20,138 nt of DNA from a virus: positions 1-20,138 of IMG/VR virus record IMGVR_UViG_3300006928_000150, one strand, 5' to 3'. Numbering within the stretch: position 1 is the stretch's first letter; each line of letters begins with the position of its first letter. The notes beneath the pieces were generated by a model. The model saw only the letters and a program-made list of their open reading frames with translations, was not told the DNA's origin and ran no database searches. Positions 1 to 5,021 of this stretch are shown here, one piece after another. A program made the translations under genes and the position numbers.

Positions 1-135
1 ATCATCAGATGCTGTCCCGTTTCGTTGGTTAACCAACAGTTTGATAAGCCCCATGATGATCTCTACATCTTGCGATGAGATGTCAGCAGTAAGAGCCATG
101 ACAGGTATGTCGTTTTCTTGTGTAATGTTTGGCAT
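1..135 (-). CDS. Hypothetical protein, 3' part cut by window edge
   Basis: An open frame on the minus strand starts with ATG at 135 (MPNITQENDIPVMALTADIS...) and runs off the left edge after 45 codons. A strong Shine-Dalgarno sequence, AGGGAGG, lies seven bases before the ATG, and a promoter with TTGACA/TAATAT boxes lies just upstream at 170-198. No motif is recognised. The visible part is a small soluble protein with an amphipathic stretch (VEIIMGLIKLLVNQ). It is transcribed away from the gene at 235, and the two share one compact regulatory region. The gene is supported by its RBS and promoter rather than by homology. Confidence 0.7.
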   Translation of the reverse strand, partial: MPNITQENDIPVMALTADISSQDVEIIMGLIKLLVNQRNGTASDD

Positions 136-150
136 GTTAGCCTCCCTTTA

Positions 151-224
151 TTTGTTAAGTTCACCTATTATATTACTTGACAATATAAGATATGTCAACT
201 AATATTGTATATAAACTTAACAAA
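151..224. promoter_or_regulatory. Divergent overlapping promoters with flanking inverted repeat
   Basis: Plus-strand promoter: TTGACA 177-182, 17-bp spacer, TAATAT 200-205, for the gene at 235. Minus-strand promoter: TTGACA on complement 193-198, 17-bp spacer, TAATAT on complement 170-175, for the gene starting at 135. The two -35 boxes form a near-palindrome at 177-198, so one polymerase would block the other. An 11-bp perfect inverted repeat (TTTGTTAAGTT 151-161; AACTTAACAAA 214-224) encloses both promoters. It could be an operator pair, or each arm may simply be part of the leader shared by several genes here. Confidence 0.7.
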
Positions 225-234
225 GGAGGACAAT

Positions 235-414
235 ATGTCTAATCTACAAAACCTAGAAACAGAAGAGAAGATCTATCAAGAAGTGATTGATGACAACTCA
301 TCTGAAATGCAGCTAAAAATTGAAGCATTAAAGATCGCCTTTAGTTGTGATCGTGATACAGCAATTGACATGATTGCCGAAGCAACCATTAACAAATGGA
401 GGAATCAGCAATGA
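235..414 (+). CDS. Small hypothetical phage protein (59 aa)
   Basis: The start is ATG 235, because AAAGGAGGA ends only four bases upstream. An earlier in-frame ATG at 205 lies in the promoter -10 box and is rejected. The product is acidic and helical (MSNLQNLETEEKIYQEVIDD...), ending in a segment that resembles a UBA-like or small helical bundle motif (residues about 25-55, with ALKIAFSCDRDTAIDMIAEA). There is no catalytic motif or membrane segment. Its stop TGA overlaps the ATG of the next micro-gene (ATGA), so the two are probably translationally coupled. Function unknown. Confidence 0.75.
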   Translation: MSNLQNLETEEKIYQEVIDDNSSEMQLKIEALKIAFSCDRDTAIDMIAEATINKWRNQQ

Positions 415-479
415 TGGAGTTTGCTATAACCACAGCGGTGCTTGTCGCTATTTGTGGAATACTTGCAACAAAGGATTAG
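411..479 (+). CDS. 22-aa putative single-pass membrane micro-protein
   Basis: An ATGA overlap with the preceding gene opens a 22-codon frame, MMEFAITTAVLVAICGILAT plus KD, almost entirely one hydrophobic helix. A GGAGG at 398-402 lies nine bases before the first ATG, good for either of the two tandem ATGs. It is followed directly by a strong terminator at 516-543, so it closes a two-gene transcript. Phage micro-proteins of this shape can be membrane effectors or lysis helpers, but nothing here shows a specific role. Its short length keeps confidence moderate. Confidence 0.5.
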   Translation: MMEFAITTAVLVAICGILATKD

Positions 480-515
480 TCCCCTAATAGTTCACCACAA
501 TCTGTTGCAAGTAGG

Positions 516-543
516 AACGCCCTCGAAAGAGGGCGTTTTTTTT
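516..543 (+). terminator. Intrinsic terminator with GAAA tetraloop
   Basis: A stem AACGCCCTC (516-524) / GAGGGCGTT (529-537) is closed by a GAAA loop and followed by eight T residues (536-543). This is a textbook Rho-independent terminator for the transcript of the genes at 235 and 411. Confidence 0.93.
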
Positions 544-548
544 CGCAC

Positions 549-669
549 GCCAGCCGTCTGGCCAGGCCACACTCTTTTTTAGACAGGACAGACAAGCAAG
601 CGCTTCGCTTCACCTAGCCTAAAGGCCCGGTCTTGCTTGTCTGTCCTCGGCGGAATAAACAAGCAAGCA
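549..669. repeat. Divergent copy of hairpin-plus-tag repeat, with inverted second copy
   Basis: GCCAG/CTGGC (549-553/558-562) forms a GC-rich hairpin followed by a T-rich linker and GGACAGACAAGCAAGC (586-601), a variant of the repeat found at 1147, 1917, 1989, 2057 and 2129. A perfect 16-bp inverted copy of AGGACAGACAAGCAAG (585-600) lies at 632-647, and a third fragment, ACAAGCAAGCA, at 659-669. The gap between two convergent genes therefore contains this element in both orientations, bracketed by two terminators. Confidence 0.7.
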
Positions 670-670
670 C

Positions 671-699
671 AAAAAAGGGCCACCCGAAGATAGCCCTTT
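671..699 (-). terminator. Intrinsic terminator of the 719-1027 gene
   Basis: AAAGGGC (674-680) pairs with GCCCTTT (693-699). Read on the minus strand, the stem is followed by six T residues (671-676). It lies 19 bases past the stop codon of the minus-strand gene ending at 719. Confidence 0.85.
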
Positions 700-718
700 C
701 ACACTAACAAGGAGGCGT

Positions 719-1027
719 TTAGTGTTTGGTTGATTCGTTTGCTTCTGCTTCGTCCAAAGCCTTCAGCGCATACTTGTCAGCATGTCTAACTGCCTCCCTT
801 ATTGTGTCCATCGCTTCTTCTCTTTGCTCAGAGTCATCTGCTAAAGCACAGAGAATAAACCCGCATATATGTTTGACTAAGTGCTCTATCAACATCTGCG
901 CGTCAGTTGTCTCGCCTGTTGTCTCGCCTCTTTCTTTGGTGAGGTTCAGCATAGTTTCGCCCAACGCTTCTACAGATGTTTGCGTGATTCTAAACACTTC
1001 TTCATACTCTTTTTCGTATTCGTCCAT
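719..1027 (-). CDS. Hypothetical acidic helical protein (102 aa)
   Basis: The ATG at 1027 is preceded on the minus strand by AAGGAGAGCGTC and by a full promoter (1058-1086); a terminator follows at 671-699, making it a complete monocistronic unit. The product starts MDEYEKEYEEVFRITQTSVE and is rich in Glu, Asp and Lys, with mainly helical character. A mildly hydrophobic central stretch (about 49-62, HLVKHICGFILCAL) may be a buried helix rather than a membrane segment. No known domain is recognised. The strong, separate expression signals suggest a host-interaction or regulatory role, but this is inference. Confidence 0.75.
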   Translation of the reverse strand: MDEYEKEYEEVFRITQTSVEALGETMLNLTKERGETTGETTDAQMLIEHLVKHICGFILCALADDSEQREEAMDTIREAVRHADKYALKALDEAEANESTKH

Positions 1028-1057
1028 GACGCTCTCCTTGTTATTAGTTGAACCTAT

Positions 1058-1086
1058 ATTATAGGACAGGTCTTATATAATTACAA
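1058..1086 (-). promoter_or_regulatory. Promoter for the 719-1027 gene
   Basis: On the minus strand: TTGTAA (complement 1081-1086), a 17-bp spacer, then TATAAT (complement 1058-1063). It is followed by a leader of the type AGGTTCAACTAATAACAAGGAG, whose design recurs before other genes in this arm. Confidence 0.78.
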
Positions 1087-1112
1087 CACTTATTTTGACC
1101 ATCCCTTCCATC

Positions 1113-1174
1113 GCCCAGCCAGGGCCGGGCCGCTGGTATTTTTTGTCAGAACAGACAAGCAAGCAGTCTGTTCT
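1113..1174. repeat. Hairpin-plus-tag repeat copy, tag itself in a 9-bp stem-loop
   Basis: A GC-rich segment with CCAGC (1115-1119) / GCTGG (1132-1136) is followed by TTTT-GT and the 19-base core CAGAACAGACAAGCAAGCA (1147-1165). Here the core is followed by GTCTGTTCT (1166-1174), which pairs with AGAACAGAC (1148-1156) to give a perfect 9-bp stem with a 9-base loop. This isolated copy lies in the non-coding gap between two minus-strand genes. Confidence 0.8.
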
Positions 1175-1186
1175 AGGGCGGCCCTC

Positions 1187-1230
1187 AGAACCACCAAGCG
1201 CGCCCATGCTGGATTAATCTTGGTGGTTCT
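1187..1230. terminator. 12-bp perfect inverted repeat behind a gene end
   Basis: AGAACCACCAAG (1187-1198) and CTTGGTGGTTCT (1219-1230) are perfect inverted copies with a 20-base loop. They start ten bases after the stop codon (1241) of the minus-strand gene. No T-run follows on that strand, so it may be a transcript-end stabiliser or Rho-assisted terminator rather than a classical intrinsic one. Confidence 0.5.
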
Positions 1231-1240
1231 TGGGCGGTGG

Positions 1241-1783
1241 TCAGCAGATGCTGAACCCTCCGCAGTTTTCAACAAAGTGTTGAAACTCTTTGACATTGTC
1301 CACTTCAAAAGGATAGCTAGTTCTAGAGTCTTTGCGCTTTCCTTTGCCTTCACAGCCATTGCAATCACCTTGCACATACTCGTCGTCTCGTTGACCAGTA
1401 CCGTTGCAAATTGGACACTCGACCAATGGCATTGCTTCAATGGCTCGATCATAAAGGACTTTGTAGCTCTCGACACCACCGTTGTCTAACTCGATCTTCA
1501 AAGCGTTGGCAATATACTTGCAAGTCTCTGCGTCGATCTCGTGCCCACTGTTCTCGTGTCCATAAGAGTAATCTTCTTCACTAAGAACCTCAGAACAAAG
1601 CTCATAAACATAGTCCCAAAGTGGTCGCCAAAACCAAACATTGTTTCTAAAGTATTGACCACTTTTAGCTTGACCATCAAAATAGTCTTGCCATGCTTTT
1701 TCCTGCCATTCTTCTGGCATATTCTCGTCAGGTCGTGGTGCTGCTTCTGTTGTTGGATTTAATCCATATACATCCATTCCCAT
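1241..1783 (-). CDS. MGMDVYG-type phage protein with DnaJ-like zinc motif
   Basis: The start is ATG 1783, because AAGGAGAACAAC directly precedes it; an upstream in-frame codon at 1822 would overlap the promoter. The N-terminus MGMDVYGLNP and the segment YFRNNVWFWRPLWDYVYELC (44-63) are typical of a widespread uncharacterised phage and bacterial family. Residues 123-148 carry CPICNGTG and CNGCEGKG (Cys 123, 126, 141, 144), the repeat of the DnaJ central zinc-binding domain; two repeats would make one zinc centre. There is no J-domain, so it is not a full co-chaperone. A role in protein or nucleic-acid binding is plausible but unproven. It has its own promoter at 1814-1842. Confidence 0.85.
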   Translation of the reverse strand: MGMDVYGLNPTTEAAPRPDENMPEEWQEKAWQDYFDGQAKSGQYFRNNVWFWRPLWDYVYELCSEVLSEEDYSYGHENSGHEIDAETCKYIANALKIELDNGGVESYKVLYDRAIEAMPLVECPICNGTGQRDDEYVQGDCNGCEGKGKRKDSRTSYPFEVDNVKEFQHFVENCGGFSIC

Positions 1784-1813
1784 GTTGTTCTCCTTGTTTG
1801 TTAAAGAACCTAC

Positions 1814-1842
1814 ATTATACAAAATATCCTATAAAAATACAA
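1814..1842 (-). promoter_or_regulatory. Promoter for the 1241-1783 gene
   Basis: On the minus strand: TTGTAT (complement 1837-1842), a 17-bp spacer, TATAAT (complement 1814-1819). The leader GTAGGTTCTTTAACAAACAA then runs into the RBS AAGGAG. Same layout as the promoter at 1058-1086. Confidence 0.78.
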
Positions 1843-1882
1843 ACCTTTTTTCACCAACTGCTGTGTTGCGATCTGCTGCTAA

Positions 1883-2147
1883 CGCCGGGCCCAGGCCGCT
1901 GCTGGCGCGTTCTTGTCAGAACAGACAAGCAAGCACCAATAGCTACATTACGCGCGCCAGCGGCAACCTGGGACGCTGGGTCTTTTGTCAGAACAGACAA
2001 GCAAGCAGGGCTATGATCCTGCTGCCAGGCTGGCCCAGGGACGGCAGCTCTTTTGCCAGAACAGACAAGCAAGCACCTACAGCTACATTGTGTGCACCAG
2101 CCGCGGCCCTGGGAAGACGCCCTTTTGCCAGAACAGACAAGCAAGCA
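1883..2147. repeat. Array of four hairpin-plus-tag repeats, candidate iterons
   Basis: The 19-base core CAGAACAGACAAGCAAGCA is exactly repeated at 1917-1935, 1989-2007, 2057-2075 and 2129-2147, with 72-, 68- and 72-bp periods. Each is preceded by TCTTG or TTTTG and a GC-rich inverted repeat: CGCC/GGCG 1883/1904, CCAGCG/CGCTGG 1957/1974, GCTGCC/GGCAGC 2021/2043, CCAG/CTGG 2097/2109. The first and third intervals also share a stretch like AGCTACATT. This 376-bp gap (1784-2159) has no credible gene. The array ends two bases before the first DnaA box, so an origin role is likely. Alternatives are a regulatory RNA array or a REP-like intergenic element. Confidence 0.85.
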
Positions 2148-2148
2148 G

Positions 2149-2190
2149 TTATCCACAGGTTATCCACAGTTTTTGGGAAAGTTATCCACA
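2149..2190 (+). other. Three perfect DnaA boxes, candidate replication origin
   Basis: TTATCCACA occurs at 2149-2157, 2160-2168 and 2182-2190, all in the same orientation, with starts 11 and 22 bp apart (one and two helical turns). This is the E. coli consensus DnaA site. Two boxes lie within the 3' end of the nuclease gene, and the second contains its stop codon. Together with the adjacent repeats and AT-rich DNA at about 2520-2660, this has the appearance of a replication origin. Confidence 0.75.
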
Positions 2191-2582
2191 GCTTTTGCCC
2201 ATGATTCTTCGAGCACGGCCCAAGAACCTTGGTCCCCGGTCCATATAGGTTCTGTTTTTAGCCCATGGACGACCAACGACTCGACCTGGGACGCATGATA
2301 GAGGTGCATCGTAAATTTTCTGGGGGTAGAAGGGCGGAGGGCCTGTACCAAGATAAAAGCGGGCGTATCTGCTCTCTCTTCGTGATATGCGATCTGGTGC
2401 GGCGATAGCGAAACTTTATTACTTTGGGTTACTTTAAGTTCAGCAGTAAAGTACACGCCAGCTGGAGACACCCCCAATACATCGGGAATACCGAGATTAA
2501 CCCATGATTCAATGCGTATCAGCCGAAACGATTTCAAATTCGTTTTAACTTTTTTCCAAAATAAAGACTCTTTTTTAGCCAC
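2160..2582 (-). CDS. PD-(D/E)XK nuclease, VRR-NUC / resolvase-like
   Basis: The protein (140 aa) shows the nuclease core: Glu25 in helix 1, GIPD with Asp34, AELK with Glu48 and Lys50, and Gln63 in the following helix (SLSPHQIAYH). This arrangement is typical of VRR-NUC and Holliday-junction-resolvase-type phage endonucleases, which cut branched or damaged DNA using Mg2+. The start is GTG 2582; an in-frame stop lies just upstream and there is no ATG until the C-terminal half. No clear Shine-Dalgarno precedes it, which is unusual here. Its stop codon lies inside a DnaA box, so gene end and origin candidate overlap. The C-terminal ~50 residues have no recognised motif. A role in recombination or replication-intermediate processing is inferred. 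Confidence 0.82.
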   Translation of the reverse strand: MAKKESLFWKKVKTNLKSFRLIRIESWVNLGIPDVLGVSPAGVYFTAELKVTQSNKVSLSPHQIAYHEERADTPAFILVQALRPSTPRKFTMHLYHASQVESLVVHGLKTEPIWTGDQGSWAVLEESWAKAVDNFPKNCG

Positions 2583-2748
2583 AGTAAGTCGAGTGTATCA
2601 AACTAGAATAAAAATAACTTGATATATAAGACAGGTTTGATAGACTTGAGTAGTGTAGAGAAATAACTTTCTACACGGATAAACGACGGGTAGTGTCGGT
2701 TTCGATTGGCACTACTTGTAAAAACAAACTTAACTAAGGGAGTTAATT
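2583..2748 (+). promoter_or_regulatory. Promoter and structured leader of the clamp-like gene
   Basis: A possible promoter is TTGATA 2619-2624, 16-bp spacer, TAGACT 2641-2646. Transcription would start near 2653, exactly where a stem GTGTAGA (2653-2659) / TCTACAC (2670-2676) begins. A second stem, GTAGTGTC (2690-2697) / GGCACTAC (2708-2715), with one G-T pair, follows. The leader ends in AAACTTAACTAAGGGAG before ATG 2749. The two hairpins may protect the RNA or respond to a signal; no known riboswitch class is recognised. Confidence 0.5.
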
Positions 2749-3390
2749 ATGGACAAAATAAAACACTTAAACGGCGAAATGTTAGCCAGAGCTTGCGCTT
2801 TTGCAGCCAAGCCAAAAGACCCACGCTTCTATTTAAGAAGTGTGTTTGTTGAACGCAGAGAAGAGGGAGGTGTTTACATTGTATCTACCAATGGCCATGT
2901 TCTTTGTTGTTACACAGATCCTTTTGCAATACCTCACTTGGATTTTGATAGTGTAATGATAGACATTTATCAAGAAAACTCATCTAGGATTAAACCAATC
3001 TTTACTCAACTAAAGAAAACTAGTGAAGCTAGAATTGATGTTGAGGATCAAGATGGACAAGGTGGTGTTTCTATTCGATACAACGACGATACGACTTTTG
3101 TAAGAACCATTGAAGGGACTTTTCCTGACTGGCAACAGATATTTAAGCAAGAAGTTGAGCATCAAGAAAATGTAAGTTTTGATCCAAAATACTTGGGTTT
3201 ATTAAAAGACTTTGTATTAAAAGGATCAAATGATTCAGTCACGCTTCTTCGATCTAGTACAGAGAAAGTTAATATCTTTCAGACACCGAATGGAGTTGTT
3301 GGAGTTATGCCAAGAAAAACACAGGACCTAGACGACAATGAACTTTTGAGCTCAGAAGTTGCGATTCTTGAAGAGGTGTCCAATGGCTGA
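2749..3390 (+). CDS. Short DnaN-like sliding-clamp protein
   Basis: Several segments match landmarks of the bacterial DNA polymerase III beta clamp in order: VYIVSTNGHVL (42-52; compare LVATDGHRL in DnaN), IEGTFPDWQQIF (121-132; compare the DGRFPDYRRV motif), FDPKYLGLL (144-152; compare FNVSYVLDVL), and GVVGVMPRK near 182-190 (compare the C-terminal YVVMPMR). At 213 aa it is much shorter than a 366-aa clamp and appears to hold only the equivalents of domains II and III. It may be a trimmed clamp, a clamp mimic or a clamp-loader-interacting factor. The RBS is GGGAG seven bases upstream. It opens a ten-gene operon, and its stop overlaps the next start by eight bases (ATGGCTGA). Confidence 0.65.
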   Translation: MDKIKHLNGEMLARACAFAAKPKDPRFYLRSVFVERREEGGVYIVSTNGHVLCCYTDPFAIPHLDFDSVMIDIYQENSSRIKPIFTQLKKTSEARIDVEDQDGQGGVSIRYNDDTTFVRTIEGTFPDWQQIFKQEVEHQENVSFDPKYLGLLKDFVLKGSNDSVTLLRSSTEKVNIFQTPNGVVGVMPRKTQDLDDNELLSSEVAILEEVSNG

Positions 3391-3403
3391 ATATTACAAA
3401 CCA
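3373..3403 (+). repeat. 31-bp direct repeat, first copy at a gene junction
   Basis: This segment is identical to 3569-3599. It contains the last codons of the upstream gene (EVSNG, stop) and, in another frame, the first codons of the next (MAEYYKP). Two codons further upstream differ between copies only synonymously (LE: CTTGAA and CTAGAG). Confidence 0.95.
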
Positions 3404-3586
3404 ACAATAGAAGAAAGCAGTAATGCTTTGTTTAATTGTTTAGATATAAAAAGAACGCTTGAGTCACACAACCTTATGAACACCACTAGAGTTCATGGTG
3501 GAACAGAGAATGAAGATACACTCGGAGATTTAATATCTGATGTCATTTTATTTTTAGAAAAACTAGAGGAGGTGTCCAATGGCTGA
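3383..3586 (+). CDS. Hypothetical 67-aa protein bracketed by direct repeats
   Basis: The start is ATG 3383, preceded by GAGGTG. The first seven residues, MAEYYKP, are identical to those of the next gene, and the last seven, LEEVSNG, to those of the preceding clamp-like gene, because a 31-bp direct repeat spans both junctions. Between them lies a unique acidic region (TIEESSNALFNCLDIKRTLE... ending DLISDVILFLEK). It overlaps its neighbours by eight bases on each side. No domain is recognised. The structure suggests that this gene was inserted at, or created by duplication of, a pre-existing junction. Function unknown. Confidence 0.75.
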   Translation: MAEYYKPTIEESSNALFNCLDIKRTLESHNLMNTTRVHGGTENEDTLGDLISDVILFLEKLEEVSNG

Positions 3587-3599
3587 ATATTACAAACCA
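3569..3599 (+). repeat. 31-bp direct repeat, second copy at the next junction
   Basis: Exact copy of 3373-3403, 196 bp downstream. The offset is 1 modulo 3, which is precisely what lets the inserted gene start in the second frame of copy one and end in the first frame of copy two. Confidence 0.95.
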
Positions 3600-3800
3600 G
3601 GCACTCGCAAAGAAGTTGTTTATTCTACAGACGACGAAAGCAAAGGCGCTGTTATGTTGGGTTGGGGCAGAGGTAAGGTGCTGTTTGAAAAAGATCCAAC
3701 AACAGGTGAGATAACTTGGATTGATCCTAGTGAAGATGCTAGGGTCAGCCAAATTCTTATCAGCAGAGCAAAAGTAATCTACAAGAAGTCGGAACATTGA
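3579..3800 (+). CDS. Hypothetical 73-aa protein
   Basis: The ATG at 3579 lies inside the 31-bp repeat, behind GAGGAGGTG, a good Shine-Dalgarno sequence. The protein (MAEYYKPGTRKEVVYSTDDE...) looks like a small beta-rich soluble domain; KVLFEKDPTTGEITWIDP (34-51) resembles a beta hairpin. A basic tail ends RAKVIYKKSEH. No catalytic motif is visible. It overlaps the next gene by one base (TGATG). It may be the original partner directly downstream of the clamp-like gene before the 67-aa gene was inserted. Function unknown. Confidence 0.78.
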   Translation: MAEYYKPGTRKEVVYSTDDESKGAVMLGWGRGKVLFEKDPTTGEITWIDPSEDARVSQILISRAKVIYKKSEH

Positions 3801-4006
3801 TGTTGCGGTTACTTGGTTTGGTACTTATCGTTCTTGGTTTGGTTTTGCTAGACCTATCCACGCTTCCAATCAAGAACGATTTGTACTTTCTGTATTTACT
3901 AGGAACATTTAATAACCTTTTTTCACTTAACTACACTACAGCTGTTGCACAATCTTTTTTGTGCGCTTCAGTTGTTTGTTGTGGCATTTACCTGACAACA
4001 AAATGA
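3800..4006 (+). CDS. Two-helix small membrane protein (68 aa)
   Basis: The start is ATG 3800, overlapping the previous stop as TGATG; an in-frame TTG one codon earlier is less likely. Two hydrophobic segments are clear: residues about 2-20 (LRLLGLVLIVLGLVLLDL) and about 44-64 (AVAQSFLCASVVCCGIYL), separated by a short polar/aromatic loop. This is an inner-membrane topology. Such a protein could be a holin-like or superinfection-exclusion factor, but there is no lysis gene nearby to support a holin call. It overlaps the next gene by four bases (ATGA). Confidence 0.72.
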   Translation: MLRLLGLVLIVLGLVLLDLSTLPIKNDLYFLYLLGTFNNLFSLNYTTAVAQSFLCASVVCCGIYLTTK

Positions 4007-4119
4007 ATGAGAAAAAGAAAGATTGGAAGAAAGTTTATTATTTTAATGGGAAGAAAGTTTCAAAGAAAGATTATGATAAGATACCAGATGGTCCCAGAAA
4101 ATTTTATGGTTTTAAATAA
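4003..4119 (+). CDS. Lys-rich 38-aa micro-protein
   Basis: Starting in an ATGA overlap and ending in TAATG with the next gene, this 38-codon frame reads MNEKKKDWKKVYYFNGKKVS... and ends RKFYGFK. It is strongly basic, with aromatic residues, and similar in look to small ribosome- or DNA-binding phage peptides. It fits the gap between two other genes exactly, and its stop-start overlaps on both sides argue that it is real. No domain is recognised. Confidence 0.62.
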   Translation: MNEKKKDWKKVYYFNGKKVSKKDYDKIPDGPRKFYGFK

Positions 4120-4319
4120 TGAGAATTAAAAACAAAGAACATCAATCATTAGGGTTTAAAGAAATAAAGCAGTTGGTTTTGGAATATCCTAATGACGCTG
4201 CTTTGGGTAAATACATTAGAGAAATGTATTGGAAACAAAGAGAAATACACGAAAACTGTGGTACGCCTGAATGTTGCAACACTTGTGAGCCCGATTGGAT
4301 AGACGCAACACCGACATGA
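4119..4319 (+). CDS. Hypothetical 66-aa protein with Cys cluster
   Basis: The ATG at 4119 overlaps the previous stop (TAATG). A helical N-terminal part (FKEIKQLVLEYPNDAALGKYIREMY) is followed by a cysteine cluster CGTPECCNTC near residues 47-56, which could bind zinc. The segment around YIREMYWKQREIHEN loosely resembles VQQMYDSNCRERREHG in the gene at 4429, so the two may be distant duplicates. Its stop overlaps the next start (ATGA). Function unknown. Confidence 0.72.
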   Translation: MRIKNKEHQSLGFKEIKQLVLEYPNDAALGKYIREMYWKQREIHENCGTPECCNTCEPDWIDATPT

Positions 4320-4432
4320 AATTAATAACTAAAATCCTAGACCCTATTTTTAATTTGTTTGATTGGATTAGACAGAAAATCTACAAAATTAAAAACGGAC
4401 CTATACAAACCATACCGAGGAAAAAAGAATGA
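4316..4432 (+). CDS. Amphipathic basic 38-aa micro-protein
   Basis: The frame begins in ATGA with the previous gene and ends in ATGA with the next. The peptide starts MKLITKILDPIFNLFDWIRQ and ends in a basic tail (IPRKKE). The first 25 residues form a likely amphipathic, membrane-associating helix. Its perfect fit between two genes supports translation. No homology is recognised. Confidence 0.6.
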   Translation: MKLITKILDPIFNLFDWIRQKIYKIKNGPIQTIPRKKE

Positions 4433-4635
4433 CAAAAATATGGCGAAAAAACGAATGGGAAGAAATGACTGAAGAGCTTCAAAAAGAGCCTAAGTTTTAT
4501 TATTTTGTTCAGCAAATGTACGACAGCAATTGTCGAGAAAGAAGAGAGCATGGACAAAGAGAATTTCGAAATGTTTTTGACTATTACAGGGAATATCCTG
4601 ATTGGTTGAAACAAAAATTTTACGGCGAATCTTAA
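4429..4635 (+). CDS. Hypothetical charged 68-aa protein
   Basis: The start ATG 4429 overlaps the previous stop by four bases. Its Shine-Dalgarno is probably GAGGAAAAAAG within the upstream gene. The product (MTKIWRKNEWEEMTEELQKE...) is highly charged and helical, with many aromatic residues, and ends YREYPDWLKQKFYGES. There is no membrane segment or catalytic motif. It ends one base before the DUF3310 gene. Confidence 0.72.
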   Translation: MTKIWRKNEWEEMTEELQKEPKFYYFVQQMYDSNCRERREHGQREFRNVFDYYREYPDWLKQKFYGES

Positions 4636-4636
4636 A

Positions 4637-4894
4637 ATGACTGACATGGTAAACAGGCCTCCTCATTACAACCAAGGAGGGATAGAGTGTATTAAAGCTA
4701 TTGAAGCAAGTATGACACCAGAAGGGTTTCGAGCTTATTTAAAAGGAAATATTATCAAATATTTATGGCGTTATGAGTATAAAAATGGTATAGAAGATTT
4801 AAAGAAGGCTCAATGGTACTTAGCAAGATTGAGACTTCTAGTAGAAAAACAAGGTGAAAACGATGCAGGATTACCAACTGATAAAGAAACCTGA
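4637..4894 (+). CDS. DUF3310 family protein
   Basis: The sequence NRPPHYNQGGIECIKAIEAS (6-25), then FRAYLKGNIIKYLWRYEYKN and GIEDLKKAQWYLARL, is the signature of the DUF3310 family: PPHY, a Gly-x-E-x-I step and the KGN-IKYLWRY helix. Members are small proteins common in phages (often called nucleotide kinase-like because of an arrangement in phage T7 and relatives), but their biochemical role remains unclear. The length of 85 aa is usual. The last ~15 residues are a non-conserved tail that overlaps the next gene by 32 bases. It is the best-conserved member of this small-gene operon. Confidence 0.92.
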   Translation: MTDMVNRPPHYNQGGIECIKAIEASMTPEGFRAYLKGNIIKYLWRYEYKNGIEDLKKAQWYLARLRLLVEKQGENDAGLPTDKET

Positions 4895-5021
4895 TGAATA
4901 CTTGTTAATTAGTTCTAATGGACAAAAAGTTAGGCTTTGTACTCAAATTGAAAAAGAAGCACACAAGCTGGCAAAAAGAGCCATAAGACTATTAAACAGG
5001 ACTAATCAGAACCTTCAGTAA
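4863..5021 (+). CDS. 52-aa basic protein at operon end
   Basis: The ATG at 4863 lies inside the DUF3310 gene in another frame, with AAGGTG about eight bases upstream. The 52-residue product begins MQDYQLIKKPDEYLLISSNG and continues as a basic helix (IEKEAHKLAKRAIRLLNRTN). The N-terminal half looks like a small beta hairpin and the C-terminal half like an amphipathic helix. It runs 20 bases into the 3' end of the convergent terminase small subunit gene. It is long enough and coherent enough to be real, but no family is recognised. Confidence 0.6.
   Translation: MQDYQLIKKPDEYLLISSNGQKVRLCTQIEKEAHKLAKRAIRLLNRTNQNLQ

Follow-up and report, generated by a model that had tools for sequence, protein, structure and literature searches.

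How phages gain small accessory genes while keeping their operons intact is an old question, for which homologous joints have been weighed against random joints followed by selection. The question is raised in compact form by one locus in the window analyzed here, a stretch of 20,138 nucleotides of DNA from a marine phage (IMG/VR record IMGVR_UViG_3300006928_000150), where a 67-aa gene sits between the two copies of a direct repeat and overlaps both of its neighbors.

Architecture and contents of the junction

The perfect 31-nt repeat, identified by self-comparison of the window, occupies positions 3373-3403 and 3569-3599 at a spacing of 196 nt, and the match extends to 37 nt at 95% when the upstream codons are included (3367-3403 versus 3563-3599). 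Given the base composition of the window, approximately 1e-10 repeats of this kind are expected by chance. In each copy one ORF terminates and the following one starts, such that a beta-sliding-clamp-like gene (2749-3390), the 67-aa gene (cassette A, 3383-3586) and a 73-aa gene (3579-3800; relatives at 18 loci in 18 contigs) succeed one another with an 8-nt overlap at each step, all on the plus strand as are the other features described here. The first-pass annotation of this DNA had proposed a repeat carrying a stop and the following start, a cassette placed exactly at an overlapping junction and an offset that equals 1 modulo 3, all of which our comparison bears out. Contigs L001 and L011 also carry this gene between two repeat copies, ruling out an assembly error in the window record.

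The last codons of the clamp-like gene (EEVSNG, with a TGA stop at 3388-3390) hold the left connector, GAAGAGGTGTCCA (3370-3382), which lies within that gene and serves as the Shine-Dalgarno sequence of the 67-aa gene; the corresponding position reads GAGGAGGTGTCYA in the empty junctions of L002, L005, L006 and L007. Codons 1-7 of the 67-aa gene (3383-3403) are a copy of the 73-aa gene's first 21 nt (ATGGCTGAATATTACAAACCA), identical to 3579-3599, and the annotation was thus correct that the first seven residues derive from the downstream gene. Nucleotide identity to L027, L028 and L011 delimits a transferable body that includes the trailing connector (3410-3576). This right connector, GAGGAGGTGTCCA (3566-3578), provides both the last codons of the 67-aa gene and the Shine-Dalgarno sequence of the 73-aa gene, the downstream resident of the junction, and the TGA stop of the 67-aa gene (3584-3586) lies inside the start of that resident.

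The clamp label is a fair one since beta clamps account for all 12 PDB sequences matched by the gene's profile at E<=1 (best 8e-4) and the gene matches phrog_947, a processivity factor of the polymerase processivity family (E 1.8e-8). Its best PHROG match is phrog_3007, annotated as a RusA-like resolvase (E 4e-19), its Pfam match to DNA_pol3_beta_2 falls below the cut-off, and the AlphaFold model is too poor to be usable (pLDDT 42). The 67-aa protein is predicted to form a two-helix hairpin (pLDDT 84). No Pfam family matched it at E<=1, the only PHROG match was at chance level (E 0.37), and none of 130 PDB matches to the fold reached E<=0.001; the ribosomal proteins prominent among the many weak PDB matches were treated as chance for a helical hairpin. 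For the 73-aa gene, Pfam returned only a sub-threshold match to Hfq_1 (13.6 bits, cut-off 27).

Comparison of the site at which the clamp-like gene meets the 73-aa gene (junction J1) across the window and 18 other contigs revealed seven states. Six of these 19 contigs are empty at J1 (L002, L005, L006, L007, L020 and L023), and the other 13 are filled with one of six contents: cassette A in three (the window, L001 and L011), cassette B (MKRFKVK...) in four (L003, L008, L009 and L010), B followed by D (MSKLTKK...) in L012, cassette C with a GTG start in L004, cassette E (MSKYNEH...) in L013, and cassette G (MSKVKEYK...) in three (L019, L022 and L021, the last of which begins inside G so that the left side of G lies outside the contig). 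At the junction, L008-L010 are near copies of one another, as are the window and L001, and L019 and L022. The annotation had suggested searching relatives for the empty junction or for other genes between the same flanks, and both are found; it had also expected ordinary descent if all relatives carried the 67-aa gene, which is missing from J1 in 16 of the 19. Deleting one repeat unit in silico likewise generates the direct junction that the annotation had anticipated, and the product resembles L007 and L002.

Gap lengths reflect this variability. Across the window and 17 other contigs, with measurability varying by junction, J1 falls into seven size classes (-5, 92, 137, 171, 191, 322 and 451 nt) plus a shifted empty form (about -52 nt in two outgroup contigs), while the next six junctions are nearly constant; the exceptions are the TM|g4003 junction, longer by 178 nt in 8 contigs, and the last junction, with 19 or 221 nt. 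At TM|g4003 (window position 4003) the additional 178 nt, present in 8 of the 16 other contigs measured, provide a 38-aa gene with an extended N-terminal part (MKTNISIKL...) and look like a domain gain or loss rather than a connector cassette.

A shared right edge and a variable left edge

The connector, GAGGAGGTGTC, is read in frame as EEVS and doubles as the Shine-Dalgarno sequence of the next gene. In all four downstream settings of cassette A, identity runs through AGAAAAACTAGAGGAGGTGTC and then diverges, and the tail ...EKLEEVS is encoded by this same AGAAAAACTAGAGGAGGTGTC in distant phages. Two assertions of the annotation are not supported by this comparison: the tail of the 67-aa gene is the cassette's own rather than seven residues drawn from the upstream gene, and the CTTGAA/CTAGAG difference, which had been taken as the trace of a longer and older duplication, merely separates CTAGAG of the cassette from CTTGAG/CTTGAA of the clamp gene. 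The terminal sequence ahead of the next start is (G/A)AGGAGGTGTC in close copies of A, B, C, D, F, G and I, with divergent ends in E (AGAGGGAATGTC) and in H of L134 (GAGGAGGATTGGG). The cassettes have no stop codon of their own; the next gene provides one as ATGGCTGA, ATGACTAA, ATGAGTAA or ATGAGTAG, or farther downstream where the cassette precedes F or the gene beginning MSTRSN, and cassette A takes from the next gene only its final residue or two and the stop. Measured from start to start, 17 of 21 cassette copies have a length of 1 modulo 3.

The TC of TGTC is not known to give extra pairing with 16S rRNA. TGTC follows a GGAGG in start position at 20 of 84 sites, homologous sites of related contigs each being counted separately, and the next commonest continuation occurs at 6. 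The resident clamp gene ends with the GGAGGTGTC tail even in the empty outgroup junctions of L020 and L023. Other connectors, each present on both sides, are AGGTGTCCCTATG in L029-L031 (A homolog, 70%) and AGGAGATTTCTGATG in L126 (B homolog, 58%). L126, from another phage lineage, contains at 900-1900 a run of small genes around the B homolog with repeated AGGAGATTTCTGATG as joints. A search of all viral contigs with a 16-nt connector pattern returned 65 stretches, a number that carries no claim as many are chance by estimate; cellular genome contigs gave 12 pattern matches, among them one weak, partial match.

The left edge is organized less uniformly. Left and right connectors match over at least 11 nt in 10 of the 21 cassette copies, which are not independent of one another, as against 1.4% of 5729 same-contig start pairs. 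This comparison is conservative because the null contains the connector sites themselves, and its anchored matching overlooks G of L019, whose connector (GGAGGTGTCTGATGATG) is shifted. The window copy is among the ten, with 13 nt anchored and 31 in all. The remaining 11 copies match over fewer than 11 nt, indicating that matching joints at both edges are not required, and hardly any match is seen for A in L027, the B homologs in L127 and L128, E in L013 and H in L028. The left edge coincides with a connector in A of L028, the A homolog of L029 and D of L012.

Where the left edge departs from the connector, two cases are informative. In the window and in L011, A begins with 21 nt copied from the 73-aa gene's start (with one silent difference in L011), and this copy is limited to window-type cassettes, being missing from the differing starts of A in L027 and L028. 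In L011 the start on A reads MAEYYKP and that on its own 73-aa gene MTNYYKQ, a mismatch from which A and its copied start appear to have entered the L011 background as a unit. In L132 the 17 nt upstream of D match the tail of B, as at the B|D joint of L012, and are fused to a different gene; judged from these alignments, the left edge of L132 is an illegitimate join, and the match suggests that its D derived from a B-D array.

Movement of single genes and the likely mode of exchange

The same cassettes recur at a second junction (J2), located before the MSTRSN gene in L027, L028 and L132. L027 and L028 are distant from the window (PolA 48-49% and other shared proteins 32-69% identical at the amino acid level), and the body of cassette A at their J2 is identical to that of the window at 163 of 167 nt in each case, with F inserted between A and the MSTRSN gene in L028. 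Between L027 and L028 themselves, A is identical at 167/167 nt and the adjoining MSTRSN gene at 416/462. Cassette A differs at a single position between the window and L011 (166/167 nt), a pair whose clamp genes share 83.1% identity and whose downstream genes start differently, and cassette B matches at 172/173 nt between L003 and L012, whose clamp genes are 85.2% identical. Cassette D occupies both J1 (L012) and J2 (L132) with 271/278 nt identical, and L132 has in common with L027 and L028 the MSTRSN gene and the gene upstream of it, D taking the place of A. F (167/173) and H (150/164) are held by both L134 and L028 in different order. Overall, identity between contigs is 97.6-100% for the cassettes against 83-93% or far lower for the genes flanking them, which makes doubtful the annotation's view that the arrangement is not very recent. 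The identity of A in L027 and L028 beside a diverged MSTRSN gene, together with the presence of A and D at two loci, indicates, by sequence comparison, recent movement of single small genes, both among distant phages and from one locus to another.

Two further features of these contigs were noted. At 600-720 of L132, compared with L027 and L028, the gene beginning MSESIITQ is absent and the gene upstream shows a new 3' end at the entry point of D. In L134, small genes form a long array at 1-5000, several of them starting in a similar context (AGGA..ACTAATG or ACTATG), and GAGGAGGTGTC joints occur between 3165 and 4606.

We consider J1 to be, with good probability, a site where short gene cassettes, each running start to start, are exchanged at a shared ribosome-binding-site connector. 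A cassette would consist of a start codon, a small ORF and the in-frame connector GAGGAGGTGTC(N), with the stop supplied by the next gene. As the resident junction already holds a connector, a cassette ending in one could recombine there, the right edge presumably arising as the 11-16 nt connectors pair by homology; insertion would leave a connector on both sides, rendering the slot reusable and allowing arrays to grow, deletion between connectors would restore the empty site, and overlap of the genes would maintain translational coupling. In the window, the left edge would represent an illegitimate join after codon 7 of the 73-aa gene, leading to the duplicated start. A right edge at the connector combined with a left edge formed either at a connector or by illegitimate joining is the best-supported mechanism from these comparisons. 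Counting against it, a length of 11-16 nt is little for RecA-type recombination, and joints might persist there only because selection favors good ribosome-binding sites. Among the window proteins scanned, no recombinase was recognized with confidence and no integrase was seen, a tyrosine integrase and an attC site being the marks of integron-type gene cassettes; the sole recombination-related label is the RusA-like one, the top PHROG match of the clamp gene.

The main alternative holds that joints form at random and selection then sifts them: cassettes land anywhere, the translatable landings survive, and the connector is simply a tail inherited with each cassette that has no role in pairing. 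The varying left edges in the window, L027 and L132 and the several copies with unmatched joints accord with such a process, as does a TGTC tail passed on in this manner. We nevertheless judge it unlikely, because the resident clamp gene has the GGAGGTGTC tail in L020 and L023 where no cassette is present, the right edge of A is exact in four of four settings, and the connectors of L029 and L126 differ in sequence yet match at both sides. A local tandem duplication of 31 bp, with the gene arising or captured between the copies as the annotation literally read it, would explain the perfect repeat and the seven copied codons; it is very improbable and largely refuted by L027 and L028, given that distant phages contain the gene body with a different start and other cassettes at J1 lack the 21-nt start copy, which is a real but secondary duplication. 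Scarcely credible is vertical descent from an ancestral array lost repeatedly by deletion between connectors. The in-silico deletion does yield the empty form, and where the clamp gene is more diverged the junction is either empty (L020, L023) or filled by a different gene (L019, L021, L022), so that losses are possible, but neither the cassette identities far above those of flanking genes nor the residence of A and D at two different junctions fits such descent, and no large intact array of A-E in order was seen among the contigs compared.

Connector exchange could also be read more broadly, as a cassette system that works without an enzyme and attaches its genes at the ribosome-binding site itself. 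Genes ending in the shared in-frame connector would then be added, swapped and deleted across distant phages, always translationally coupled, with insertions regenerating their own site and lineages using connector dialects (GAGGAGGTGTC, AGGTGTCCCTATGA and AGGAGATTTCTGATGA); this we put forward tentatively, as a possibility that falls short of an even chance.

Relation to known systems and genomic context

J1 is a clear, well-resolved variant of known phage modular exchange of the boundary-sequence type. The nearest precedent is gene 68 of Island3 among the cluster I mycobacteriophages, a small gene inserted between similar sequences of ~50 bp whose C-terminal 18 residues resemble those of the upstream gene, and for these phages recombination at short shared sequences has been proposed (PMC3029335). 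Unlike that example, the locus here accepts many alternative cassettes in a single slot and uses an in-frame Shine-Dalgarno sequence as the joint; some of these cassettes are shared with a second junction of distant phages, and the left edge can lie within the following gene. Exchange by homologous recombination at the boundary, one hallmark of such sequences, is suggested here by the cassette edges only. Of the other hallmarks, empty and alternative forms among relatives are present (6 empty, 13 filled), and the same short sequence at both edges is seen over at least 11 nt in 10 of 21 copies and not in the other 11.

A run of small genes with overlapping stop and start codons also recalls lambda ninR, reportedly described by Kroger and Hobom in 1982 as a 'chain of interlinked genes'. 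The nin-type ATGA overlap is not the rule here, where overlaps are 8 nt in the window and ATGA appears in a single cassette copy (F in L134). According to the portion of the literature covering lambda nin, its small genes are joined by overlapping stop and start codons (PMC8022706), and lambdoid ATGA joints overlap by 4 nt, whereas those described here overlap mostly by 8-17 nt and include an 11-nt constant connector. The Start-Associated Sequences of Cluster K mycobacteriophages resemble the connector in placing a short conserved sequence with a Shine-Dalgarno core before unrelated small genes. They are 13 bp of different sequence (GGGATAGGAGCCC versus GAGGAGGTGTC) at 11-19 copies per genome, as against 0-3 copies of the full connector pattern per record, and the passages that describe them contain no cassette exchange, which is seen here from sequence comparison (PMC3203893). 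One homologous and one illegitimate edge are likewise combined in homology-facilitated illegitimate recombination, described for linear DNA entering bacterial chromosomes (PMC3240628); the process proposed here is inferred from phage sequences only. Relaxed phage recombinases could work on short or imperfect homology (PMC3945230). In the Pfam, PHROG and PDB comparisons the 67-aa protein shows no sign of being a mobility protein of the kind carried by transposons or homing elements.

By PolA, the nearest isolates to the window phage are HTVC023P-type pelagiphages (52-53%). A paper treating that group reports cross-family multigene transfer, and the string 'ribosom' is absent from its main text (PMC9599517). 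No GGAGGTGTC connector occurs in the first 25 kb of cultured HTVC023P or in 30 kb of DSL-LC04. Among 50,697 isolate phage records the 67-aa protein has no relative at E<=0.1, H and a B homolog have none among isolate phages at E<=0.01, and the clamp protein is found in four distant isolate records only. Our literature search found neither junction nor connector, weak evidence of absence since subscription papers lay mostly outside its coverage.

The joint described here is visible, short, in frame and common to unrelated genes and distant phages, and thus the homologous-joint and random-joint ideas become separable by experiment. As a repeated in-frame Shine-Dalgarno sequence, the connector also offers a search handle for pools of exchangeable small phage genes.

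Upstream of the clamp-like gene, positions 2147-2201 of the window contain three close copies of a motif with TTATCCACA, which we take to resemble DnaA boxes. These adjoin four copies of a 29-nt repeat (1907-2147; spacing 72, 68 and 72), with a fifth at 1137, and the repeats at 1907-2201 mark a possible replication origin or set of iterons.
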